Virus record (IMG/VR): IMGVR_UViG_3300000101_000235
Coordinates: 1-20,992 of that record
Reading direction: 5' to 3' (one strand)
DNA length: 20,992 bases
Source of the DNA: a virus
Shown: positions 9,018-20,298 of the stretch, one piece after another
Layout: every line of letters starts with the position of its first letter
Position numbering within the stretch: position 1 is the first letter of the stretch
Program-made: the position numbers and the translations under genes
Notes under the pieces: generated by a model
Told to the model about the DNA's origin: nothing
Database searches by the model: none
The model's input: only the letters and a program-made list of their open reading frames with translations

Positions 9018-9755
9018 TTATTTTTGCTTTTTTTCTTCAAGCATTTTTAGAAGCATATCTTTGATAGATTCGTTCTTTTTGGCGTTTTTGGTTGCTGTAG
9101 CATACATAACTGCTTCAGCATCTTTGCCATAGCGATCCTTGAAATCGCTTGTTTTCTTCTTCATGCCTTTTACAATACGTTCTTTTTCTTTTGTTTCGGG
9201 CTTTGTAAGTTCACGCTCTTGTATAGATTCTTGCATGCTGTTTGCAGCCGCGTTTGCTGCTTTTTTAACTTCTGCTTCGTCTGCTTCTGGCATTATTGCT
9301 TTGATAGCACGATATATTGCTTTATACAATTCACCTGTAGGACTAAAGCCAATTTTTTTAGCAATAGTTCCCTGTCCAAAACTCTTATCAATTGCGTTTA
9401 CAAACGGGTCATCTTCATCTTCGCCAACTAATTTATTTCTAGCCGGATGCGGTGATTCGTTACCACCAGGTTTGCTACTTTTAGTAAATTTATCTTTGCC
9501 TTTAAGTTGACCAGCACTACCTGTCTTTTGTGTTTCGTTTAATGTAATACCAGCTAATCTAGCAAAGTCAGACATACTATACTCTTTGTCCATTTGTAAT
9601 GAACCTTCTTGTACTTGTACGTTCTCTTGTATTACTGCTGGAGTTTCAATAGGTGCTGAACCACCTGCCATTTGCATAAGAGCTTTTTTATCTGCTTCTG
9701 GATTAGAAGGAAATAGTTCCCTCATCCTTGCACTCATTTCATAAAAATCACTCAT
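9018..9755 (-). CDS. Unrecognised charged protein with two marine-phage peptide modules
   Basis: The 245-aa protein is low in aromatics and rich in Lys, Glu, Ala and Gln, as in phage scaffold or core proteins. Residues 66-74 (RLAGITLNE) contain a LAG(I/V) motif also seen in the 75-aa protein at 13231, ending in an (L/I)xE site. Residues 208-223 (RYGKDAEAVMYATATK) form a basic module that I recall as appended to many otherwise unrelated marine phage proteins. There is an Ala-rich helix at 160-175. No enzymatic motif is seen. The start ATG 9755 overlaps the upstream stop (ATGA). It is the last gene before the sigma70 promoter gap and probably belongs to the late block. Confidence 0.7.
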   Translation of the reverse strand: MSDFYEMSARMRELFPSNPEADKKALMQMAGGSAPIETPAVIQENVQVQEGSLQMDKEYSMSDFARLAGITLNETQKTGSAGQLKGKDKFTKSSKPGGNESPHPARNKLVGEDEDDPFVNAIDKSFGQGTIAKKIGFSPTGELYKAIYRAIKAIMPEADEAEVKKAANAAANSMQESIQERELTKPETKEKERIVKGMKKKTSDFKDRYGKDAEAVMYATATKNAKKNESIKDMLLKMLEEKKQK

Positions 9756-10135
9756 GATCTATCTGCTCTTAGTGCTTGTACTCTTTTAATTACACGTTCA
9801 ATGTCTACAGGCATAATGCTTGGAAATTTTATTTTTAACTGCTTACGAATTCCATCATCGGGTAAGTAGAACATTTTTTTTCGAGCAAATTTTATATACC
9901 TTGGAAAGTCATCTTCGGGACCGTTCATAAAAGTACTCCACATTTTGCCAAAGTCAAGTTCTTCATTTTTTTGTGATTGTTGATAAAATTGTAAAAACTC
10001 TTTGTGGTTCTTATGCATTGCTGCAACATCTTTGTTCTTCACGTATAATTTCAACCAGCCTTTGTATTCAGGACTATCGCCGATTGTTTTTTCTTTCTTT
10101 TTAAACCAGTCAAATATACCTTCAGAAACTCTCAT
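9752..10135 (-). CDS. Unrecognised basic helical protein (127 aa)
   Basis: The 127-aa protein begins MRVSEGIFDWFKKKEK, an amphipathic start resembling its neighbours' short leaders. It then consists mainly of predicted helices rich in Lys, Phe and Tyr, with no membrane segment or known motif. The centre (FGKMWSTFMNGPEDDFPRY) and a basic end (IKRVQALRADRS) are the only distinctive parts. The start is ATG 10135 behind AAGG, 11 nt after the upstream stop. Size, charge and neighbours suggest a virion or core component; this is inference. Confidence 0.65.
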   Translation of the reverse strand: MRVSEGIFDWFKKKEKTIGDSPEYKGWLKLYVKNKDVAAMHKNHKEFLQFYQQSQKNEELDFGKMWSTFMNGPEDDFPRYIKFARKKMFYLPDDGIRKQLKIKFPSIMPVDIERVIKRVQALRADRS

Positions 10136-10146
10136 TGTATTTTACC

Positions 10147-10602
10147 TTACTTAGCTACGCAGTTGTTAACTCGCTTGCCGCCCTTCATCTTAGTCTTAGG
10201 GCTACCAAGTTTTTTAGTACTCCAACATGCAGGTCCGCCTGCTGGTGATTCTTTTTCGCTAATTTTTTTAGTAACTTTAGCTTCTATCATTTCTAAGTAT
10301 GATTCTTCAGTCATTGTCTTAGAACGCTTCATTACATTTTTAGTGCTTTTAGATTCCGCAAATTTCATATCGTAATCCATAGCATGATACACTGATCCAA
10401 TGTAATCTGCTGCTTTTGTAATTTTTGATTGTTGCCAACCTTCAATGCCTTCAGCTTCACTTACTGTTTTAAGCATATCGTGTAATTTAATAGCATACTT
10501 TGCAATCTTATAAAGATCTGCACGAGCCATTTGCACTTCATGGTCACGTTCGGCTGCATGTGCTAAATCGCCTAGTCCGCCTTCTTTAAGTTTTTTACTC
10601 AT
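10147..10602 (-). CDS. Modular late protein with basic two-Cys C-terminal tail
   Basis: The 151-aa protein has two parts. Residues 25-78 form a helical module (ARADLYKIAKYAIKLHDML, then GWQQSKITKAADYI) of a kind I recall recurring in T4-like marine phages. The C-terminus (122-151) is a basic tail with Cys126 and Cys148: GGPACWSTKKLGSPKTKMKG, ending GKRVNNCVAK. The tail could bind metal or form a disulfide. An acidic linker with EESYLEMIEAKV joins them. The start is ATG 10602 behind CGGAGA, and a T4-type late promoter candidate lies about 27 nt upstream, so late expression is likely. Probably structural or core; function unknown. Confidence 0.7.
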   Translation of the reverse strand: MSKKLKEGGLGDLAHAAERDHEVQMARADLYKIAKYAIKLHDMLKTVSEAEGIEGWQQSKITKAADYIGSVYHAMDYDMKFAESKSTKNVMKRSKTMTEESYLEMIEAKVTKKISEKESPAGGPACWSTKKLGSPKTKMKGGKRVNNCVAK

Positions 10603-10628
10603 GTTTATCTCCGAATACTTTAATAGTA

Positions 10629-10637
10629 GTATTTATG
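10629..10637 (-). promoter_or_regulatory. T4-type late promoter candidate
   Basis: The minus strand reads CATAAATAC, one base from the T4 late box TATAAATA and like the NATAAATA form used by marine T4-like phages. It overlaps the stop of the upstream gene and lies about 27 nt before ATG 10602, leaving room for a start and the CGGAGA ribosome site. Confidence 0.55.
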
Positions 10638-11247
10638 CTTGTTTCTTCTTCTTTGACTTCTTTTTGCCGCCTAGTAAATTTCCGTATTCTAGTCCGTTTT
10701 TCATTGTACCGTCTGCATTGTACATGTTTCTACTCTGTGTACGGCCAACATTTCCTACCACTGTAGCAACACTTGAAGCACCCATTCCTGATGCTGTTTC
10801 GTTTGTTTGACCTGCCATACGATCTTTTTGCATTTTAGTAGGAGTTATATTTGTTCCCTTATAGGTTCCGTCTTTAGTTAAGTTACCAGTGGGTGTTCCA
10901 TACTTTGCAGCCATTGCCTTTGAGTCAGCAGCCATTTGTTTGAGCTTAGGCATTTCTGCCATTATTTGATCATATGCTTTTTGCATTTCACCAACTCTAT
11001 TTCCGTATACACCGTTATCTATACCTTGTTTAATTGCTGTCGCAAACGTTTGGAAGAATTTTAACATTTGCGAACCTATGTCTGCTTTTGCAGCTGTTGT
11101 TGCCATTCTTTGCATAGCATTCATAGTAAGGTTAGGATCATACTGGCCAGACGCCGCCATGTTTTGTAAATCAACTGAATCTTGTTTCATTTGGGCTATT
11201 TCTTTATTGCCCGGCATTTGTTCATTTAATATTTCAAAAACTTTCAT
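10633..11247 (-). CDS. Possible capsid-targeted late protein (204 aa)
   Basis: The N-terminus MKVFEILNEQ resembles the T4 capsid-targeting leaders, with a possible prohead protease cut after ILNE. The rest is Met-, Gln-, Ala- and Gly-rich and mostly helical up to residue 115, then low-complexity with Gly, Thr and Asn. It ends in a strongly basic tail (GGKKKSKKKKQA), as expected for a DNA-contacting internal or core protein. No enzymatic motif is seen. The start ATG 11247 overlaps the upstream stop (ATGA) behind GAGGAAAG. The TAA stop lies within the late promoter candidate that serves the next gene. Confidence 0.68.
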   Translation of the reverse strand: MKVFEILNEQMPGNKEIAQMKQDSVDLQNMAASGQYDPNLTMNAMQRMATTAAKADIGSQMLKFFQTFATAIKQGIDNGVYGNRVGEMQKAYDQIMAEMPKLKQMAADSKAMAAKYGTPTGNLTKDGTYKGTNITPTKMQKDRMAGQTNETASGMGASSVATVVGNVGRTQSRNMYNADGTMKNGLEYGNLLGGKKKSKKKKQA

Positions 11248-11438
11248 GTTCTTTCCTCTAAAATACTTTTTAATACATTAGTTGTTGTATTTGTAAAAAA
11301 ACGTGGTGCAACACTATGTATAACTAGTGCAGGCACTAGTAGTTGTAATTTTACAGCAGTATTTAGTGCCTTTTTCATATGTTGCAGCCCAGTCTCGCCT
11401 TGCATTTCTAGGTGTAATTTACATTGTTTACTTAACAT
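11244..11438 (-). CDS. Small conserved membrane-associated protein (DUF6356-like)
   Basis: The 64-aa protein has the shape of a small family I recall as DUF6356: a short start, the GETGLQHMKKAL helix, one hydrophobic segment (about residues 30-49, LQLLVPALVIHSVAPRFF), and a closing TTTNVLKSI. Members are usually 60-75 aa and uncharacterised. The start ATG 11438 overlaps the upstream stop (TAATG) and its own end overlaps the next start (ATGA). It probably sits in or on the inner membrane. The family name is from memory of the pattern and should be taken as moderate. Confidence 0.6.
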   Translation of the reverse strand: MLSKQCKLHLEMQGETGLQHMKKALNTAVKLQLLVPALVIHSVAPRFFTNTTTNVLKSILEERT

Positions 11439-12943
11439 TATTTCTTACCTGATTTCATATTAGCACACCAGTGATACATTTTAGCACGTTCGCCGCTGGC
11501 TTTTTTTGCTTTTGCTCTTAATTCTGTTACACTGCCGTTGCAACTAGCACCTGACTTCTTTACTCTACCAGGTCTGCTTTTGCCTTTTTTCTTACCATCA
11601 GCAAAGTTTTCTTTGTATACATTTCCTATATGGTCCATAGATCCTATAAATTTATCGTTAAGATAAAACTTAAAACTTGGCACAGAGGCTTTAGATTTTG
11701 AATATACTTTTTTTATTGAATCTTTAAAAGAATCTATTTTTTCCTGTAATGTTCCAGGTAAATTAGATATATCAAACACCTTACCGTTGTCTGCTTTTAC
11801 AATTAATTTATCTAATGATTCAGCAAAGTTTTCTGTAATAGACTCTCCTAAATAATCATGCTTTATATAATATATAACATTACCAAGCCAATGTTTAAAC
11901 ATTTTATCTGTTTTGTTACCAACGTTACCGTCAACTTTAATAGGATATCCGTCTTTTTTCAATTGACGTTGTAATTTTAAAACTACAGGACCATTTTTAA
12001 GTTTTATACCTACAATACCATATCGTTCACTTGTTACCCATATTTTTTGTAATTCAGGATATGATTGCATTATTAAATCAGCAATGTCTTTTCGTATTGG
12101 CAAGTCATAAGGTTTTGCTTTTTGCGTTGCTGCGTCTTGTGTTTTTTTATTAGTTTCTTTATTTTCTGCAACAGGCTCTTGCATGTGTTGTTTGATTGCA
12201 TTTGCTGTGCGTTCAAACTTATGATCTTTATACTTAAATGCTGTACCGCCTGCGGCTTCCCATTCACTTACATTTTTACCGAAGTCGTCAATTAGTATGT
12301 TAGGTGTACCATCTGACTGTGTTGCATATTCGGGTTTATTACTTGTAATTATTACTTCTTTAGGTGGAAAAAATGCTAGATTCTTTTTTATCCACTCACG
12401 CTTGTGTGGTTCGGAATTAGGATCATCTGCTAGTGGGCTACTACATATATTGTACTCGCCTTTGATTTGTTTTATAACTGAAAGTAACTGTTTCGCTTGG
12501 GGTAACATTGGCAAGTTTAACCAAAACTCATCTGTGTCTCTTATTGCTTGTAGTGCATCACCGATTTTATGTTCTTTGTCAATCTTAGAAAAATGATCAA
12601 CTTTCATTAGTTTAGCCCACTCACCAAAAAAGTCTGCAAGTACGCCATCCATGTCTACATATATTTCTGTTGCCTGTGCTATCTCGCCTAAAGTTTCCTT
12701 CATATGTCTGTAGTATAGCACACTTTCGTATAGATTGTCAACCGATTCTGCCATACCTAAATTAAACAATACGTTTGTTTTGGATCCTTTTACTTTTTTC
12801 TTCATGTTAGCAGGCCGGCCGTCTTTGTCTACCTTGTTACCAAACTTAGCAGCCTGTATGGATATCTCGTTGGGACCAACATCAACAGTTTGATTCTGTT
12901 TTGTAATGCGTCCTACGCCTTCTTTGATATCGCCATACTTCAT
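11438..12943 (-). CDS. Multi-domain protein with HAD 5'(3')-nucleotidase domain and basic two-Cys tail
   Basis: The 501-aa mosaic starts MKYGDIKE, a leader-like peptide ending in IxE. Next comes a module (residues 20-62) with GPNEISIQAAKFGNKV. Residues 93-245 form a HAD domain: YVDMDGVLADF (95-105) with nucleophile D97, ICSSPL (166-171), and LIDDFGKN (217-224). This resembles 5'(3')-deoxyribonucleotidases, which dephosphorylate nucleoside monophosphates. Residues 320-352 (LKLQRQLKKDGYPIKVDGNV) resemble a peptidoglycan-binding repeat. The C-terminus (447-501) is a Lys-rich tail with Cys468 and Cys493 (YHWCANMKSGKK). The acid residues of the HAD core are present, so activity is plausible. Start ATG 12943 abuts the upstream stop. 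Confidence 0.75.
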   Translation of the reverse strand: MKYGDIKEGVGRITKQNQTVDVGPNEISIQAAKFGNKVDKDGRPANMKKKVKGSKTNVLFNLGMAESVDNLYESVLYYRHMKETLGEIAQATEIYVDMDGVLADFFGEWAKLMKVDHFSKIDKEHKIGDALQAIRDTDEFWLNLPMLPQAKQLLSVIKQIKGEYNICSSPLADDPNSEPHKREWIKKNLAFFPPKEVIITSNKPEYATQSDGTPNILIDDFGKNVSEWEAAGGTAFKYKDHKFERTANAIKQHMQEPVAENKETNKKTQDAATQKAKPYDLPIRKDIADLIMQSYPELQKIWVTSERYGIVGIKLKNGPVVLKLQRQLKKDGYPIKVDGNVGNKTDKMFKHWLGNVIYYIKHDYLGESITENFAESLDKLIVKADNGKVFDISNLPGTLQEKIDSFKDSIKKVYSKSKASVPSFKFYLNDKFIGSMDHIGNVYKENFADGKKKGKSRPGRVKKSGASCNGSVTELRAKAKKASGERAKMYHWCANMKSGKK

Positions 12944-13234
12944 TTATGCACCTTTAATATATCCTGCTGCTATTCCGGTTTGAATAAGGTCTTTAATCTT
13001 TTTCTCCATATCAGGATCAGTTTGTCCAAAACCCTTTAGCATTTGGTATGTTGATTGTAACATTTGAAGAGTTCTTCCAAAATCTTTTTGTGCTTTTTTG
13101 TATGTAGGATTTGAATAATCTGTATCAACTTCAGGTTTTTGTATTTTAAAATCTTTTTTATCACGAGGAGAAGCTAGGTCAGTAAATAATTCTGGCTGCT
13201 TTGGATCTTCTTTTATGATATCGTGTATATTCAT
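12944..13234 (-). CDS. Small possible capsid-targeted protein (96 aa)
   Basis: The leader MNIHDIIKED has an I-K-E site at residues 7-9 resembling a prohead protease cut site. After it the protein is hydrophilic: a disordered, Lys/Asp/Pro-rich first half, then a helical stretch (about 46-90) with FGRTLQMLQSTYQMLKGFG. It has no membrane segment or known motif. It starts at ATG 13234 overlapping the upstream stop (ATGA), and the next gene starts directly at its own stop. I do not recognise the family; a core or internal-protein role is inferred from leader and neighbours. Confidence 0.62.
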   Translation of the reverse strand: MNIHDIIKEDPKQPELFTDLASPRDKKDFKIQKPEVDTDYSNPTYKKAQKDFGRTLQMLQSTYQMLKGFGQTDPDMEKKIKDLIQTGIAAGYIKGA

Positions 13235-13458
13235 TTTTTGCGTCCTCTAAACCCAGCTGGCATATTTTGATTCATCATCTTTGGTTGGCTAAACCAAAGT
13301 CTAAACCATTCTGGATCACCAGGTCTAATATTTTTATCACGCATCTTTTTAGCATTTGAGTTTGCTGCATCACTGATGTTCTCAAGTGTATACTCTGTGT
13401 AACCTTTAAATTCGTTTACACCAGCAAGTTTCTTGAGTTCGTCAATACTATCGTACAT
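13231..13458 (-). CDS. Small basic protein with LAG motif (75 aa)
   Basis: The 75-aa protein begins MYDSIDELKKLAGVNEFKGY. The KKLAGVNE part repeats the motif RLAGITLNE of the 245-aa protein at 9018. The rest is polar and basic, with SNAKKMRDKNIRPGDPEWF and a tail MPAGFRGRKK. No known fold. The start ATG 13458 overlaps the upstream stop (TAATG); its end overlaps the next gene (ATGA). Its coupling to the neighbouring late genes suggests a structural accessory role, which is inference. Confidence 0.62.
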   Translation of the reverse strand: MYDSIDELKKLAGVNEFKGYTEYTLENISDAANSNAKKMRDKNIRPGDPEWFRLWFSQPKMMNQNMPAGFRGRKK

Positions 13459-14834
13459 TAGGACTTGCCCTTCTTTAGCATTGCTATTGCCTGGTCGTAT
13501 GGTACGCTTTGGCCTTGACTATTTTTAAATATTACTTTAGCACCAGCCTTTTTGGCCATCATTGGTATTTTTATTAGATCTGATACAGTGCCGTCTTTGT
13601 TAGGTGACTTTACAATAGCATCCATACTTTGTTTTACTTTAGGTGTAACTGGTTTTCTATCAGCAACTATATGCATTGATAAATTAGGACTTATGTTGTA
13701 ATTAATTTTAAAGTTTTTATCACTTTGACTAATACCCAAGCCACCAGATCTTATACCCATTTCACCTTTGTCAATCAAGTTTCCTTTTAGATCATATACA
13801 GCGTCTGTATCTACTACTGTTGTAGATGTACTAAGGTCTATACCATTCTTTTTTAATATTTCTGCATCAGCTGGTTTTTGTCCGAAGTCGGGATTTTTAG
13901 TTGTTACTGAGGTATTAGCATCAACAGTAATTGTACTTTTTATAAAATCATGTATTTGACTGTAACCTTTTATCTTAGGAGTTTTCCATCTAATCAAACG
14001 GGAACCGTCAAAAGTATATGTGCCACCACCGTTACTAACATGCATAATATTGTCGTTATACTTGTCCTGTTTATACGTAGTACCGTCTGATTTAGTATGA
14101 CCATCTCTACTACGAGGGATTGTTGCGTCTGGTGCTTTAGGAGGTTGCGACATTTTAATTGGCTTTATCTTGTTAGGAACTGGATTATCATCTTCTTGTA
14201 TGCTTTCAGCAGGTACTTCTGGATCACCAAGTGCGTCATTAAGCAACTTACTAGCAGTTTCACCGTTACCTGGATACATTAATTCTGCAGCTTTTGCTTT
14301 TGATTCATCATCCATTTCAGGCCACGTTGCTCTAAGTTCACTTGCACTCTTAATATCCATACCACTAAAATTAAAATCAATCGTAGGACCATATGTCATA
14401 TAACCATGCATATCTGCACCGTGTTCTAGTTCACCATTGTAGCTTATAATGTAGCCCATTTGTCCATCGCTTTTTCTTATCTGATCCGGCTTAGGATGAC
14501 TTGTTTGATCTTTTTCGCTACGTACAAATACTAATGCAGTATTTTCTGGATCACTTAGTAAGCCTGTATACGACAACGCATTGAAAGGACTTTTAACTTG
14601 TATAAAGCGTTGTGTAGGTACACCGGCCATAGCAGCTAATTTTTGTTTTATAGCAAAAGGAAAGGGTCGAGACTTAGTGTCGTCGGTAGCAGCTACATAA
14701 ACATTAGGTTTACCGAACGTGTCAACTGCCCAGTCGTATAAACTTTTGTGTCCAGGATGGAAAGGATGAAATCCTCCTGGCATAACTGCAACAACCTTCT
14801 TTTTACGTTCTTCAAATAATTCCCTTAGTTTCAC
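13458..14834 (-). CDS. HxGH nucleotidyltransferase with capsid-leader-like N-terminus and long unknown C-terminus
   Basis: The 458-aa protein starts MKLRELFEER, closely resembling T4 capsid-targeting leaders. An adenylyl/cytidylyltransferase fold follows: VMPGGFHPFHPGH (18-29..) with HPGH at 26-29, and SASELR (163-168) in the position of the family's (S/T)xxxR helix motif. NMN/phosphopantetheine adenylyltransferases and cytidylyltransferases share this fold; substrate cannot be told. Residues about 215-458 are beta-rich, Lys/Asp/Gly-rich and unrecognised, with a basic end (AIAMLKKGKS). The start is GTG 14834 overlapping the upstream stop. It is unrelated in detail to the short TagD-like enzyme at 3132. 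Neighbours are late proteins, odd company for a free metabolic enzyme. Confidence 0.75.
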   Translation of the reverse strand: MKLRELFEERKKKVVAVMPGGFHPFHPGHKSLYDWAVDTFGKPNVYVAATDDTKSRPFPFAIKQKLAAMAGVPTQRFIQVKSPFNALSYTGLLSDPENTALVFVRSEKDQTSHPKPDQIRKSDGQMGYIISYNGELEHGADMHGYMTYGPTIDFNFSGMDIKSASELRATWPEMDDESKAKAAELMYPGNGETASKLLNDALGDPEVPAESIQEDDNPVPNKIKPIKMSQPPKAPDATIPRSRDGHTKSDGTTYKQDKYNDNIMHVSNGGGTYTFDGSRLIRWKTPKIKGYSQIHDFIKSTITVDANTSVTTKNPDFGQKPADAEILKKNGIDLSTSTTVVDTDAVYDLKGNLIDKGEMGIRSGGLGISQSDKNFKINYNISPNLSMHIVADRKPVTPKVKQSMDAIVKSPNKDGTVSDLIKIPMMAKKAGAKVIFKNSQGQSVPYDQAIAMLKKGKS

Positions 14835-15151
14835 TTGTACTCGCCTTTTTTAATTTCTTCCATTTCTTCTGAAAATAGTTTATTTAAAATAGCATCACGG
14901 TGTTCTTTTGTATATAAATCATCTGGATGTTTTGCTAAATTATACTTTTTACAGTAACTTGTACAGCCGTGATTAACCATGTCACCTAAGCATTTTCTAG
15001 GATTTATTTCTTGACCTTTATTATGCATATCAGCAATACTTGCCATCGCAGGAAAATATTCCTTACGATAAAACTCAGGGTCATTACGCATATAAAAACT
15101 TGTGTCGTCTACTAAATCAAATTGTGGCTCTACTACTTCGAATATCTTCAT
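14831..15151 (-). CDS. Small Cys-containing protein with leader-like N-terminus (106 aa)
   Basis: MKIFEVVEPQ resembles the neighbours' leaders (V-V-E instead of L/I-x-E). Residues 50-70 carry three Cys and a His (NPRKCLGDMVNHGCTSYCKK), a spacing that could bind metal, though no named zinc-finger pattern fits. The rest is helical and charged, ending EEMEEIKKGEYK. The start ATG 15151 lies 3 nt after the upstream stop, and its stop overlaps the GTG start of the nucleotidyltransferase. I do not recognise the family. Confidence 0.65.
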   Translation of the reverse strand: MKIFEVVEPQFDLVDDTSFYMRNDPEFYRKEYFPAMASIADMHNKGQEINPRKCLGDMVNHGCTSYCKKYNLAKHPDDLYTKEHRDAILNKLFSEEMEEIKKGEYK

Positions 15152-15154
15152 AAC

Positions 15155-15739
15155 TTACCACTTTCTACAAGACCAGTAACGTGCTTTATGACGCGGTCCT
15201 GGATTATCACAGTTGTGTCTTGCTCTAAAAGAGCGTCTTGCTGCTGGATTATTTTTTCTAATACGCATAGACTTACCTTTAACACTTGATCCACCGTGTC
15301 CAAAGTTAACTTTAACTACATTGCCTTTTGGATTCTTAACATATACTTTAAACTTTTTAGTGTCGCCAGCCATTGGCTTACCAAGTTTAACTTTACGTCC
15401 TTGATATTCTGCTTCATCGATAACATCATCATCGTTATACCACATCTCACCGTACTCTGCATAAAAGTCGTCATCGTCGTCAAATGTAACTTCGTCTAAA
15501 TCTTCTGCTTCGTGTGCATTTACAAAAATATCAAAATCTTCATAACCTTCTGAAAATAAATAGTTTGCTAATTTATTTGCATATTCGCCTGATTCCTGTT
15601 CGTCAAGTGTTCTAGGCAAAGGTATTTGCATAACTGTTGTGTCTTGTTCGCTTTCAAACGTTTCATAAATGGGAAATGCACTTTCGTCTAATGTTTTAGT
15701 TTCCTGTTTTTCCATTACTACTGTTACATAATGTTCCAT
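15155..15739 (-). CDS. Acidic-basic two-part protein with conserved two-Cys C-terminal module
   Basis: The 194-aa protein is sharply split by charge. Residues 1-112 are acidic, with an Asp run at 87-91 and (L/I)xE sites such as TLDE (16-19). Residues 114-194 are strongly basic: GRKVKLGKPMAGDTKKFKVY, then KNPKGNVVKVNFG, then a tail with RARHNCDNPGPR and ARYWSCRKW (Cys177, Cys191). I recall this tail as common on T4-like marine phage proteins. The acidic part is scaffold-like, and the basic part could contact DNA or capsid. Start ATG 15739 is behind TAAGGA. Function unknown; late assembly role inferred. Confidence 0.7.
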   Translation of the reverse strand: MEHYVTVVMEKQETKTLDESAFPIYETFESEQDTTVMQIPLPRTLDEQESGEYANKLANYLFSEGYEDFDIFVNAHEAEDLDEVTFDDDDDFYAEYGEMWYNDDDVIDEAEYQGRKVKLGKPMAGDTKKFKVYVKNPKGNVVKVNFGHGGSSVKGKSMRIRKNNPAARRSFRARHNCDNPGPRHKARYWSCRKW

Positions 15740-15748
15740 GTTTATTCC

Positions 15749-16114
15749 TTAATGATTTAGTAATACACTGCTTACAGTACCGTCAGTCCAAGCACTAATA
15801 TAAGCTCTAACCCATACATAGTTACCTGTAAAGTTATACGTATGTGTACCAGTATTATACTGTCCGCTATCGTCTGTACTTGTTAAATTGGTTCCTGTAA
15901 TAGTAAACCAGTCAGCATCAGTAGGATTGACAGCAAGTGTAGCTTGCATATCTATAGCACCTTGAAACCCTGTTACTGTGTATTGTACACTATGAAAACC
16001 GTCACTACGTCCGTAGTAACCGTCTCCTTTGAATTTTTCACCTGTATGAGTCTGTACAGTACTGTCTCCTACGTGTGCTTGATTTGATATTATTGTTTCA
16101 CTATTACTTGGCAT
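15749..16114 (-). CDS. Beta-rich probable virion surface or tail-associated protein (121 aa)
   Basis: The protein is rich in Thr, Ser, Gly, Asn and aromatics, with alternating beta-strand pattern (QYTVTGFQGAIDMQATLAV, then THTYNFTGNYVWVRAYIS). It lacks Lys runs and Cys. This is typical of small beta-sandwich structural or fibre-related domains and resembles short marine phage structural proteins with FHSVQYTVTGF-like strands. The start chosen is ATG 16114 (MPSNSET), 4 nt after the upstream stop. An ATG at 16138 in the same frame would overlap that gene by 20 nt and add a non-beta peptide. GATAAATA just upstream could be a late promoter but would leave almost no leader. Confidence 0.68.
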   Translation of the reverse strand: MPSNSETIISNQAHVGDSTVQTHTGEKFKGDGYYGRSDGFHSVQYTVTGFQGAIDMQATLAVNPTDADWFTITGTNLTSTDDSGQYNTGTHTYNFTGNYVWVRAYISAWTDGTVSSVLLNH

Positions 16115-16118
16115 ACAC

Positions 16119-16772
16119 TTATTTATCAGTTTTTGCAATGTATACTAATTTGTCGATTCGCTGTATATTACCAATGAACAGAGTTAGTAATTGCATTACT
16201 TTCTCATCTCTAACGTAAATATAAAAGCCTTTTACATAACCGTTGTTTGCTATCTCTCTTAAACAAACAGGTCCTGCTTTTGCTTTATCTTCGTTAGATA
16301 TTATCCAATTTGCTAATGCAGGGTCAACATTTTCGCCTAAACTTACTTTATATTCAAACTTAGGAGGATCCGATACAACAATAACATTTTTATTTAATTT
16401 TGGTACATCTATACGAGGCTCCCAGAATTCAATGGCACTAAATTTTTCTGATATATGGGATAGCCATTGATATTCTTGTGAGTATACTTGTATTAGATCA
16501 GCTTCAATTCTAAGTTTAAAGTCAAGTTTTTTTGAAAACTCTATATATAAATTTCTAGCATCAAAAAAAGTTTTATGTGACATGTGTTCAACCCTCATGC
16601 CGTAATTTCTTACTAGAGGAAGATTTTGTTCGTAAAGTAATTGGATTTCATCTAGCACATCTTTTGCGTGTGCTAGTTTTTTTTCTCTAAATATTGAAGC
16701 AAGTGTGTTCCTAACAACTACCTTATAAGGATATTCGTTATAAAAGAGCTTAATTGTTTCACACTTTTTCAC
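16119..16772 (-). CDS. Unrecognised 217-aa protein downstream of clpA
   Basis: I do not recognise its function. The protein opens with TIKLFYNEYPYKVVV, a beta start, then helices (LASIFREKKLAHAKDVLDEI). It continues with basic and aromatic segments, and a C-terminal half with IDVPKLNKNVIVVSDPP, ALANWI and GFYIYVRDEKVMQLLTLFIG. It has no membrane segment or metal motif. I recall similar proteins as hypothetical in marine phages. The start is GTG 16772 behind AAGG, overlapping the clpA end by 14 nt, which suggests coupled translation. There is no other start until codon 59. A role in replication or host takeover is possible; nothing here proves it. Confidence 0.68.
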   Translation of the reverse strand: MKKCETIKLFYNEYPYKVVVRNTLASIFREKKLAHAKDVLDEIQLLYEQNLPLVRNYGMRVEHMSHKTFFDARNLYIEFSKKLDFKLRIEADLIQVYSQEYQWLSHISEKFSAIEFWEPRIDVPKLNKNVIVVSDPPKFEYKVSLGENVDPALANWIISNEDKAKAGPVCLREIANNGYVKGFYIYVRDEKVMQLLTLFIGNIQRIDKLVYIAKTDK

Positions 16773-18999
16773 TTACAGTTTTACCTTCTGTCTTCAAAGA
16801 TATTTCATTGTCGACCATGTCAATAGTTACTTTACCACCATCTTTAAGATCACCGAATAATAATGCTCTTGCTAATGGACGTTTGATCTCTTTATCGATA
16901 ACACGTTGTAAGGGTCTTGCACCCATTTTAGGATCAAATCCTTTATCAACTAAGTAATCAAGGGTTTCGTCAGTTACACTTATTGTAACATTCTTATCTT
17001 TGACCATGTCTTTAAGTTCAACAAGAAACTTACCAACAATTTTCATCATAACCTCTTTGCTTAGTTTAGCAAAAGTTACAATACCATCAAGTCTGTTTCT
17101 AAACTCTGGTGCAAAGTATTTCTTAAGAGCGCCGTCCTCGTATTCTTTTTCAAACTCGTCACCGAATCCAATTGAATTCTTTTCAGCATCTGCTGCGCCT
17201 AGGTTAGTTGTAAGAATTAAAATACAGTTACGTGCATCTGCTTCTTTACCATTAGAACCTGTGATCTTACCATTGTCCATAATCTGTAATAAAACTTGCG
17301 ATACATCTGGATGAGCTTTTTCGATCTCATCTAACAGTAGTACACAGTTTGGATTCTCTTGCAACTTCTCAATTAACAATCCACCCTTTTCTTCGTGTCC
17401 TACATACCCCGGAGGAGATCCAAGTAGTTTACTTACACTATGACGCTCTTGATATTCACTCATATCAAAGCGTACAAGAGTAGTACCTAAATGTGTAGCA
17501 AGTGCTTTTGCTGTTTCTGTTTTACCAGTTCCTGTTGGACCCATAAATACAAAACTACCAATTGGTTTATCTGCGCTCTTTAGGCCTGCCTGGCTCACAA
17601 GTATCTTATCTACAACATCTTCAACTGCTTTATCTTGGCCGTATACTTGACTCTTAATGTTATGTTCAAGATGTGCAAGATTTTCAGTTTCACGTTCAGC
17701 AACTTGTTCTTCTGGAATGTTAATTACTTTTGCAAGTTCAAATTGAATTGATTCTGCTGTAACAACTTTTTCTTTTACAGGTGCCTTCAAGTTAAAGCGT
17801 GAACATGCTAAGTCTATTAAGTCAATTGCTTTATCAGGAAGTTTTTTATCTGCTTGATATTTTACACTAAGTTTAATAGACTCGTCAATTGCTTCTTGTG
17901 TAATAATAGTAGTATGATAATCTTCGTAATATTTTTTAATACCGTTAAGGATATCATTTGTTACTTCTACACTAGGCTCATCAACTGTTACACGCTGGAA
18001 TCTACGCATCAATGCACGGTCTTTTTCAAAGTACTTACGATACTCGTCCCATGTAGTTGATGCAACAACTTTTAAGTCGCCTTTAGTAAGTGCAGGCTTC
18101 AGCATGTTTGCTAGATCGTTTGAACTGTTTCCTCCACCAGCACCAGCACCATTCATCATGTGTGCTTCGTCGACAAACATAATTGTTTTGCCTTGCTTTT
18201 TTAATCCTGCTAGTACAAGTTTAAATCGTTCTTCAAAGTCTCCACGATACTTACTACCTGCTAACATAGCACCAATGTCTAAATTAAATACTTTATATTC
18301 TTGTAAAAATTCTGGGACATTACCTTGAACAATATTAAATGCCATACCTTCTGCAATAGCTGTTTTACCAACACCTGGATCACCTACAAGTAATACGTTA
18401 TTTTTCGAGCGTCTTCCGATTGCTAATGCAATATTATCTAGTTCAATTTCACGTCCGATAACTGGATCAATTTTATTTTGCTTTACTTCTTCGTTTAGAT
18501 TAGTTGTAAATGCCCGTAGGGCTCTTTGTGCTGCACCTGATGCTTCTTCGTCTTCGTAATTAGTTTCGAATTCAGCTTGTAAGTATTCAGCAAAAGATGC
18601 TTTACTAATTCCTGATTTTTCCATGTAATAGTTTGCATGGGTTTTCTTTTCATGAAGCATACTAAGAGCAACATCACTTAGTTCAATATTAGGTCTCCCT
18701 GCAAATAAAACTTGCGTAAATGCTCTGTTTAAAACACGTTCTACAGTTTGTGTTTTTTTAGGCTTATGCTTTGGATCTTCTATTTTGATCTCGTTCATCT
18801 CATTTTTAATATGATGTTCTAAGTTGGATTTCAAAAAGTCAACGTCAGCGCCAAATCCTTTACATAAATTATAAAAATTTTCACTACACATCATTGCAAA
18901 TAGTAAATGCTCTAGAGTCACAAATTCATGACCTAATTTTTTAGCATCTCTAATTGACTTGTCAAATACCAACTGTAAATCTTTTGATGGTTCTACCAT
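16759..18999 (-). CDS. clpA: ClpA-type AAA+ unfoldase with ClpP-docking loop
   Basis: The 746-aa protein is nearly the size of E. coli ClpA (758 aa). It has a Clp N domain (1-142). AAA1 has Walker A GDPGVGKT (206-213), pore loop KYRG (250-253) and Walker B FVDEAH (275-280). AAA2 has Walker A GPTGTGKT (487-494), pore loop GYVG (531-534), Walker B LLLDEIE (554-560) and sensor 2 GARPLQR (693-699). There is no ClpB middle coiled coil. It keeps I610-G611-F612 in the loop after sensor 1, matching the IGL/IGF tripeptide that docks ClpA/ClpX on ClpP. It should therefore unfold proteins and feed ClpP; no clpP is in the window, so host ClpP is the likely partner. Start ATG 18999 overlaps the deformylase stop (TAATG), SD GGAG. 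Confidence 0.93.
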   Translation of the reverse strand: MVEPSKDLQLVFDKSIRDAKKLGHEFVTLEHLLFAMMCSENFYNLCKGFGADVDFLKSNLEHHIKNEMNEIKIEDPKHKPKKTQTVERVLNRAFTQVLFAGRPNIELSDVALSMLHEKKTHANYYMEKSGISKASFAEYLQAEFETNYEDEEASGAAQRALRAFTTNLNEEVKQNKIDPVIGREIELDNIALAIGRRSKNNVLLVGDPGVGKTAIAEGMAFNIVQGNVPEFLQEYKVFNLDIGAMLAGSKYRGDFEERFKLVLAGLKKQGKTIMFVDEAHMMNGAGAGGGNSSNDLANMLKPALTKGDLKVVASTTWDEYRKYFEKDRALMRRFQRVTVDEPSVEVTNDILNGIKKYYEDYHTTIITQEAIDESIKLSVKYQADKKLPDKAIDLIDLACSRFNLKAPVKEKVVTAESIQFELAKVINIPEEQVAERETENLAHLEHNIKSQVYGQDKAVEDVVDKILVSQAGLKSADKPIGSFVFMGPTGTGKTETAKALATHLGTTLVRFDMSEYQERHSVSKLLGSPPGYVGHEEKGGLLIEKLQENPNCVLLLDEIEKAHPDVSQVLLQIMDNGKITGSNGKEADARNCILILTTNLGAADAEKNSIGFGDEFEKEYEDGALKKYFAPEFRNRLDGIVTFAKLSKEVMMKIVGKFLVELKDMVKDKNVTISVTDETLDYLVDKGFDPKMGARPLQRVIDKEIKRPLARALLFGDLKDGGKVTIDMVDNEISLKTEGKTVSEKV

Positions 19000-19502
19000 T
19001 AACTAACTCCTGCCATTAATTTTTTTTGTTTCTTTTTTGCCATATCTAACTTCAACTTACTTACCCTATCTGTAAACTCTATACCTTGTAGATGATCATA
19101 TTCGTGTAGGAAGCATCTAGCATCTATCCCACTAAACTCTAGTATACACTCATTCTCCTCAATGTCAAGGAACTTTGCTACCAATTTCTTTGGTCTGCGT
19201 ATATTTAATAATAAACCTATATGACTTAAACACCCTTCTTTCCCTAGTTCAGTATTTTCGTCTACTTCTAGTATTTCCGGATTAATTATAGCAAACGGTT
19301 TAGTTACTTCTTTGTGTTCGATAGGTCTCATTACAAATATTTGTGCATCTAATGCCACTTGATTAGCTGCTAATCCTATACCATTCTTAGAAAGCATAAT
19401 ACTTGCCATTCTTCCTGATATTTCCTTGGCGTTTAGTTCTTTAAAATTAAAAGGTCTAACTTTCTTTTCTAACCAAGAATCAGGTGATTTAACTAGTTCC
19501 AT
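18999..19502 (-). CDS. def: Peptide deformylase
   Basis: The 167-aa protein has all three deformylase motifs: GIGLAANQ (41-48), EGCLS (89-93, metal ligand Cys91) and HEYDH (133-137, metal ligands H133 and H137 and catalytic E134). It removes the formyl group from new protein N-termini. The length equals bacterial enzymes and it keeps a basic C-terminal helix (VSKLKLDMAKKKQKKL); many marine phage deformylases are shorter and lack that part. The start ATG 19502 overlaps the dnaJ end by 14 nt behind AAAGGA. In marine phages deformylase is thought to keep up with fast phage protein synthesis; here it shares an operon with DnaJ and ClpA, pointing to protein maturation and quality control. Confidence 0.95.
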   Translation of the reverse strand: MELVKSPDSWLEKKVRPFNFKELNAKEISGRMASIMLSKNGIGLAANQVALDAQIFVMRPIEHKEVTKPFAIINPEILEVDENTELGKEGCLSHIGLLLNIRRPKKLVAKFLDIEENECILEFSGIDARCFLHEYDHLQGIEFTDRVSKLKLDMAKKKQKKLMAGVS

Positions 19503-20298
19503 TTCGTATGTCCTTTATTTGGTTTATTTGCTGTTCGTTTAATATTGGCATCTTTGCATCTAACTTAATATGTATATTACCTGGTCTTTTAGTATGAACA
19601 TCCGGTATTCCGTGTCCTGTAATACTAAAGGTTGTTCCTGGTTTAGTGCCAGCAGGTACAGTTAAACTAAATTTTCTATTTGTAGGAGTAACTACTTCAA
19701 TTATAGTACCTACAATAAAATCAAAAACATTTATTTGTCTTGTAGCATGAATGTTATTACCATCTCTGTGCCATATTGGATCTCTTCCAACTTTAACTTT
19801 TAAAATTAAATTTCCTTTAGGCAATCCGTTTATACTATCGTCACCTAATCCTGCAAATTTTACTGTACTTCCATTTTGTACTCCTGGAGGAATAGCTGCA
19901 TCTAAGTAGCCTGTTCGTCCACTTGGAAGATTGTATTGTATATTTACACCAACCCCTGTAAATACTTCTTTAAATTCTAATGAATAGTTAAGTGCTATAT
20001 CTTGGTTACGCTGTTGGCGCTGTTGAGGATGTCTAAATCCAAAGTTTGCAAAGATATCTTCAAATCCTCCCATACCTTGAAAGCCATTTGGTCCAAACCC
20101 TTGTGGTTGTGGGTTATCATATTGCTGACGTTTTTGGGGATCTTTAAGAGTAGAGTATGCTTCATTAATTTGCTTGAATTTAGCATCGCTTCCACCATTA
20201 CGGTCGGGATGATGCTGCATACTTAATTTCTTGTACGCTTTTTTAAGATCTGCTTCAGAAGCATTTCTACCTACACCGAGTGTTTCGTAATAGTCCAT
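19489..20298 (-). CDS. DnaJ/CbpA-type J-domain co-chaperone (no zinc finger)
   Basis: The 269-aa protein has a J domain at 1-65 with HPD at 30-32, a Gly/Phe/Gln linker (66-97), then two beta-sandwich substrate-binding domains (about 100-255: PPGVQNGSTVKFAGLGDD and VPAGTKPGTTFSITGHG are the class signatures). There is no CxxCxGxG cluster, so it is a class B/CbpA-like protein, shorter than E. coli CbpA (306 aa). It lacks most of the C-terminal dimerisation part. It should stimulate an Hsp70 ATPase, presumably host DnaK since no hsp70 is here. The start ATG 20298 has no clear SD and sits in an inverted repeat, suggesting structure-controlled translation. It overlaps the deformylase gene. Confidence 0.92.
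   Translation of the reverse strand: MDYYETLGVGRNASEADLKKAYKKLSMQHHPDRNGGSDAKFKQINEAYSTLKDPQKRQQYDNPQPQGFGPNGFQGMGGFEDIFANFGFRHPQQRQQRNQDIALNYSLEFKEVFTGVGVNIQYNLPSGRTGYLDAAIPPGVQNGSTVKFAGLGDDSINGLPKGNLILKVKVGRDPIWHRDGNNIHATRQINVFDFIVGTIIEVVTPTNRKFSLTVPAGTKPGTTFSITGHGIPDVHTKRPGNIHIKLDAKMPILNEQQINQIKDIRNGTS

Follow-up and report, generated by a model that had tools for sequence, protein, structure and literature searches.

Why should neighbouring genes with unrelated products begin with similar short peptides? The question is raised by the virus record IMGVR_UViG_3300000101_000235, of which the whole analysed stretch of 20,992 bases is called here the window. This DNA of a marine T4-like virus has genes for a DNA polymerase of family B, an ATPase resembling ClpA, a peptide deformylase and DnaJ, and IMG/VR contains close relatives of it. 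Eight genes of one minus-strand block (positions 9752-15739) begin with a peptide of 5-10 residues that ends in hydrophobic-x-E (Table 1). These leaders are very probably capsid-targeting propeptides of the T4 type, carried by a large suite of internal proteins of the phage head. A sequence-only reading of the window had proposed such a suite, and the proposal is supported by the T4 architecture, the S77 protease and LxE-type gp23 site of the clade, the 73 protein families that carry the leader in relatives, the late-promoter core and the virion proteins of cyanophages.

The five leaders named in that reading and the looser case MRVSEGIFDW are present as they were written, all on the minus strand. 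Two further members, MSKKLKE↓G (10147-10602) and MEHYVTVVME↓K (15155-15739), had been missed. Of the five, MKIFEVVE↓P is the weakest member and a doubtful one, with Pro after the putative cut and the strict motif described below in only 8 of 69 homologues, its lenient figure being carried by a Glu near residue 5.

A strict version of the leader motif, M[KRN][ILVFYM]x[ED][ILVF]x(1-2)E, was derived from the window and tested on families independent of it. Permuted residue classes of the motif served as controls, and internal methionines served as controls for a profile. The motif was found in 4 of the 32 automatically called genes of the window (five with the GTG-started gene), against a mean of 0.09 for 119 permuted motifs. 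In relatives it occurs in 176 of 3,797 proteins and on 73 of 1,274 protein families, the permuted median being 1 in both cases, and high permuted counts arose only where a permutation overlaps the true motif. The profile, built from families that had no member in the window or in the large genomes, picked out at score 8 four genes in the window, five in G003, seven each in G001 and G005 and ten in G006, with 0 expected. A generic pattern ([KRN]...hxE) was dropped as too noisy on small proteins. A first clustering was replaced by a stricter one, as it had merged 649 proteins, plausibly through common C-terminal modules.

Under a lenient test (hydrophobic-x-E at residues 5-12), 80-100% of the homologues of the genes starting at 9752, 10147, 10633, 11438, 12944, 13458, 14831 and 15155 retain the site, versus 0-35% for most genes outside the block and 23% across all families, so that site conservation jumps at the block edges. 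What is conserved is the hydrophobic residue at P3 and the Glu at P1; leader length and the remaining residues vary. In the 10147 family, E7 is invariant in 20 aligned homologues, and the leaders range over MSKKLKE, MRHNEINKKVNE, MRMKKIQE and MRKNEFKE. The site is retained in 91% of 44 homologues of the 11438-12943 gene, and a homologue of the 9752-10135 gene (L109) starts MKIVDLDE↓G. The MKLRELFE gene has a GTG start codon that overlaps the stop of the upstream gene, and its counterparts in relatives begin with MKLRELFE or MRLRELFE. Residues M1, L3, R4, F7 and E8 of this leader are invariant in 11 homologues with overall identity down to 29%; the leader of the nucleotidyltransferase family is conserved better than the enzyme itself.

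The T4 leaders cited in that reading were checked: in the T4 record, the internal proteins IPII and IPIII start with MKTYQEFIAE and Alt with MELITELFDE, and the prohead protease gp21 cleaves after L/I-x-E (PMC9026906). The Alt propeptide has about 7 residues (PMC9026906), so MELITELFDE is not simply cleaved after its final Glu. In MKTYQEFIAE, residues 4 and 7 are important for targeting, and residues 8 and 10 for processing. In the 9-residue leaders of the window, MKVFEILNE and MNIHDIIKE, residues 3, 6 and 7 are hydrophobic and residue 9 is Glu, which is the T4 spacing shifted by one; among 9-residue leaders, position 3 is hydrophobic in 66% and position 6 in 74%, position 7 being hydrophobic by selection of the set, with Glu at position 9. 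Five large relatives (139-358 kb) encode a T4-type gp21 prohead protease (PF03420) and a gp23 major capsid protein (PF07068). At its maturation site, gp23 has FLTE↓A in T4 and LLTE↓A in S-CREM2; the Melnitz protein has FLSE↓A, and those of this clade have YLSE↓A or YLSE↓S. Two residues of the LxE↓(A/S) site, L63 and E65 in T4 numbering, are invariant from T4 to this clade.

Virion data come from cyanophages. For S-CREM2, published mass spectrometry of virions detected several accessory proteins (PMC10665884, Table 3), and their N-termini were taken from the genome: an SAM hydrolase (MKDFDSFLEE), a kinase (VKRFDAFLTE), a cytidylyltransferase (MKNFSSFLTE) and ORF13 (MKDLHSFLTE), together with a Cas9-like protein in which LRFASFMAE occupies residues 17-25. 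F-h-x-E, which matches the motif of the T4 internal proteins and gp23, lies within the first 26 residues in 5 of the 24 non-structural proteins of the virion, compared with 3 of the 164 undetected proteins (Fisher p=0.00098, an optimistic value because the motif was fixed after the N-termini had been seen). The authors of that paper suggest encapsulation; the words leader, targeting and N-terminus occur nowhere in it. In the S-SCSM1 record, an NMNAT (MKSFLQFLKE↓A) is marked as a virion protein, as are four genes adjacent to it, and the same leaders are found in P-SSM2 (MKSFSQFLTE) and S-CRM01 (MKLFNQFFKE, MKKLDQFLTE). The cyanophage nucleotidyltransferases and that of the window belong to the same superfamily and have a similar gene position, a likeness established at superfamily level.

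A C-terminal scan for leader-like sequences gave one good case, the S-SCSM1 virion protein gp279 (RTFKEFLEYIE; L290 6547-6756), and was confounded by other C-terminal motifs, e.g. those of DNA polymerases. A related protein in L143 (start 825) carries an N-terminal leader, MKINEVVAE, instead of the C-terminal one of gp279.

Regarding these data, the block would be transcribed late in infection from T4-type late promoters. The core ATAAATA precedes the homologues of the 10147 gene in 64 of 67 relatives (4.3 expected from shuffling), most commonly at 21-29 nucleotides, and those of the 15749 gene in 64 of 69 (3.6 expected). In relatives this core also stands ahead of many structural genes and several leader genes; the full TATAAATA was not found in the window, and the ATAAATA core alone is conserved. 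Late expression is predicted for the operon-head genes of the block from the conserved promoter core. After synthesis, the amphipathic N-terminus of 5-10 residues could dock each protein on the prohead scaffold core, as in T4, and the S77 protease gp21 would cut after hydrophobic-x-E, as at the conserved LxE↓(A/S) site of gp23. The mature proteins, the nucleotidyltransferase and the 5'-nucleotidase among them, would remain in the head alongside the DNA; a part of them would probably be carried into the host together with it. For this phage, cleavage and packaging are predicted from the sequence, and injection into the host is presumed from the parallel with T4. At positions 16114-16126 (minus strand) the core lies merely 11-12 nucleotides before the start codon of 15749-16114, with no clear Shine-Dalgarno sequence; a near-leaderless late mRNA is possible for this gene.

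Chance or compositional resemblance of N-termini, or descent of the block from one gene family, appears highly improbable. K/I-rich starts are indeed common in AT-rich genomes and the most lenient test is passed by 23% of all families, but the permutation and internal-methionine controls contradict a chance origin, the protein bodies belong to unrelated families, and the leaders stay conserved where the bodies diverge. The leaders could instead be docking motifs or degrons for another partner, e.g. the ClpA-like ATPase, and be left uncut by the prohead protease, since the ClpA/peptide deformylase/DnaJ cassette adjoins the block. This is very unlikely: leaders are also found in T4 and S-CREM2, with no ClpA annotated in the regions read, hydrophobic-x-E is the maturation site of gp23, and leader-bearing proteins are present in cyanophage virions.

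An alternative that accepts cleavage by gp21 takes the proteins for parts of the scaffold or core with a role in head shape or DNA organisation, and not for effectors delivered to the host. The gp22-like scaffold proteins of the clade start in a similar way (MLDALKTLFE, MDILRALLE), several block proteins are small and basic, and copies of the gp23 arm, described below, suggest a structural role. On the other hand, enzyme domains are retained in the nucleotidyltransferase and the nucleotidase, further domains, PARP-like and of poly(A) polymerase, occur in relatives, and the T4 proteins with such leaders (the internal proteins and Alt) are injected (PMC9026906, PMC12373910). A purely structural suite is considered unlikely, and the leaders are still best read as targeting propeptides of packaged internal proteins.

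Several observations weigh against this interpretation. The residue after the putative cut of MKIFEVVE (P1') is Pro, and the short leader is missing from three block members (13231, 9018 and 11244). The genes for gp21 and gp23 are absent from the 21-kb window fragment. The virion evidence comes from two T4-like cyanophages outside the clade of the window, and according to the authors of the published data, co-purification of abundant proteins cannot be excluded there. Moreover, the clade consensus is unlike the T4 and cyanophage leaders. A comparable block is found in the isolated phages Melnitz and HTVC008M, most of whose leaders are missed by the clade-trained profile, indicating that the consensus forms differ.

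Concerning the cargo, the enzymes of the window block are the nucleotidyltransferase (13458-14834), for which a sequence search of PDB gave no relative, and the NT5C-type nucleotidase (11438-12943), which also has a sub-threshold PG_binding_3 match; the rest are small proteins. In relatives, a head of the poly(A)-polymerase/CCA type is fused to NT5C (NT5C and PolyA_pol in L202); the other domains found there are a PARP-like one, which scores below the Pfam cut-off, KOW with sigma-70 region 1.1, and domains that bind peptidoglycan. In the window, C-terminal modules that are basic and mostly contain Cys lie on the minus strand at 11441-11545, 10150-10173, 15158-15232 and 9066-9191. The modules MYHWCANMKSG, RVNNCVAK, ARYWSCRKW and AVMYATATK recur on different proteins of relatives (partly by eye), and it is possible that they are DNA- or capsid-binding tails.

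Some internal proteins may carry a second addressing element. In relatives, apart from gp23 itself, the best matches to the residues that follow the gp23 site are eight non-capsid families (L063, L066, L089, L086, L133, L135, L039 and L051), and their gp23-like segment (S/TATAGATSAGNIA) starts directly after hydrophobic-x-E, e.g. IIE↓AATSGATSAGNVAAVANP (L063), VSE↓TATAGSTSSGNMATVANP and LIE↓TASAGATSAGSVAAVANP. The virion-detected S-CREM2 ORF160 (L252 16343-17236) copies the arm of its own gp23, GFTGxxAxxGPxAGYDPLM (score 95, shuffled maximum 54), and a small S-SCSM1 gene likewise copies the arm of its own gp23 (score 83, shuffled maximum 46). The gp23 arms of the clade and a cyanophage score 20 against each other, and those of two cyanophages 110; as the arms of the two lineages are unlike each other, the copies in each lineage follow the capsid protein of that lineage. 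The window has an arm-like stretch, NE↓TASGMGASSVATV at 10759-10797 (in 10633-11247), which is faint and not significant alone. Tentatively, and with a likelihood that we place slightly short of even, internal proteins of marine T4-like phages could carry, in addition to the leader, a copy of the mature N-terminal arm of their own capsid protein directly behind a prohead-protease site, so that cleavage would free fragments whose N-terminus resembles that of the capsid protein and could dock on the inner wall of the capsid. S-SCSM1 gp275 (L290 8042-8227), of 61 amino acids and annotated as a major head protein, consists merely of a copy of the capsid N-terminal arm and a short basic tail.

Table 1. 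Genes of the block and late-promoter cores in the window (an arrow marks the putative cleavage site)
Feature	Position (strand)	Leader or other element	Basis or remark
Late-promoter core ATAAATA	16120..16126 (-)		Directly upstream of 15749-16114, the first gene ahead of the leader block
Small protein	15155..15739 (-)	MEHYVTVVME↓K at 15710-15739; C-terminal SFRARHNCDNPGPRHKARYWSCRKW module	Hydrophobic-x-E in 87% of 67 homologues
Leader protein	14831..15151 (-)	MKIFEVVE↓P at 15128-15151	MKIxE (first half) conserved
Nucleotidyltransferase, HPFHPGH motif	13458..14834 (-)	MKLRELFE↓E at 14811-14834, GTG start	Pfam CTP_transf_like in homologue L213
75-amino-acid protein without short leader	13231..13458 (-)	Conserved LAGVNE near residues 11-16	Alignment of family by eye
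Leader protein	12944..13234 (-)	MNIHDIIKE↓D at 13208-13234	Family of 2 members only
5'-Nucleotidase (NT5C, HAD)	11438..12943 (-)	MKYGDIKE↓G at 12920-12943; C-terminal SCNGSVTELRAKAKKASGERAKMYHWCANMKSGKK module 11441-11545	Pfam NT5C, PDB 3bwv
DUF6356 small protein without leader	11244..11438 (-)		
Leader protein	10633..11247 (-)	MKVFEILNE↓Q at 11221-11247	Site kept in all 5 non-identical homologues
T4-type late-promoter core ATAAATA (CATAAATACTA)	10630..10636 (-)		Upstream of 10147-10602
Leader protein	10147..10602 (-)	MSKKLKE↓G at 10582-10602	C-terminal RVNNCVAK module
Short-leader protein (MRVSEGIFDW of the sequence-only reading)	9752..10135 (-)	MRVSE↓G at 10121-10135	Hydrophobic-x-E kept in 12/12 homologues
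Neighbour without short leader	9018..9755 (-)	LAGITLNE near residues 67-74; basic C-terminal module 9066-9191	PHROG 12788

The 9018-9755 and 13231-13458 proteins have a conserved LAG(I/V)x(1-3)E in place of the short leader, and LAG(I/V)xE is restricted to few families. In the 9018 family, a C-terminal ESIKxxLYxxL-like helix is retained after a variable middle. A tblastn search with 10147-10602 against isolated phages gave no match. The chaperone-like cassette (ClpA, peptide deformylase and DnaJ) lies at 16759-20298, adjoining the leader block, and the three genes are likewise grouped in the Sinorhizobium phage Phosso. The combination of ClpA and prohead protease is reminiscent of the 'moraphage' lineage described in PMC12619734, a candidate affiliation.

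Abundant marine T4-like phages encode many proteins to which no role has been assigned. A code for packaging that can be read from the sequence would allow the proteins carried in the head, such as nucleotidyltransferases, nucleotidases and ADP-ribosyltransferase-like proteins, to be listed from genomes, and it would account for the metabolic enzymes found in cyanophage virions. A full-text literature search, outside which most subscription papers lay, gave no report of such a leader in marine T4-like phages.

Among known systems, the capsid-targeting sequence of T4 (IPI-IPIII and Alt, cleaved by gp21; PMC9026906, PMC3012670) shares with the leaders a short hydrophobic-x-E N-terminus on unrelated head proteins, and T4 and the clade have in common an LxE↓A-type gp23 site, a T4-type late-promoter core and an S77 protease of the gp21 family. 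They differ in the consensus, which is M(K/R)hx(E/D)hxE with 8-9 residues in the clade and MKTYQEFIAE in T4, and in the number of families, the clade leader being found on far more (73), including metabolic enzymes. With more families, a consensus of its own and enzymes among its cargo, the system of the clade would be a variant of the kind known from T4. S-CREM2 and S-SCSM1 (PMC10665884, PMC9602691) also have an adjoining nucleotidyltransferase and small proteins with leaders, detected there in virions, but their leaders are T4-like (MKxFxxFLxE). In SPN3US and phiKZ (PMC5694885), many inner-head proteins are likewise cut by a prohead protease after xxE, whereas most of the propeptides there are longer than 100 residues and the protease is of another MEROPS family (S80). 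Finally, the polyvalent proteins (Iyer et al. 2017, PMC5512222) are mosaics of several domains for which packaging and delivery have been proposed, and in the relatives of the window NT5C, poly(A)-polymerase and C-terminal modules are similarly combined. Polyvalent proteins often carry an MPTase domain, for which domain searches of the window proteins gave no match, whereas the proteins of the window have 1-2 domains, a leader and predicted processing by the prohead protease.

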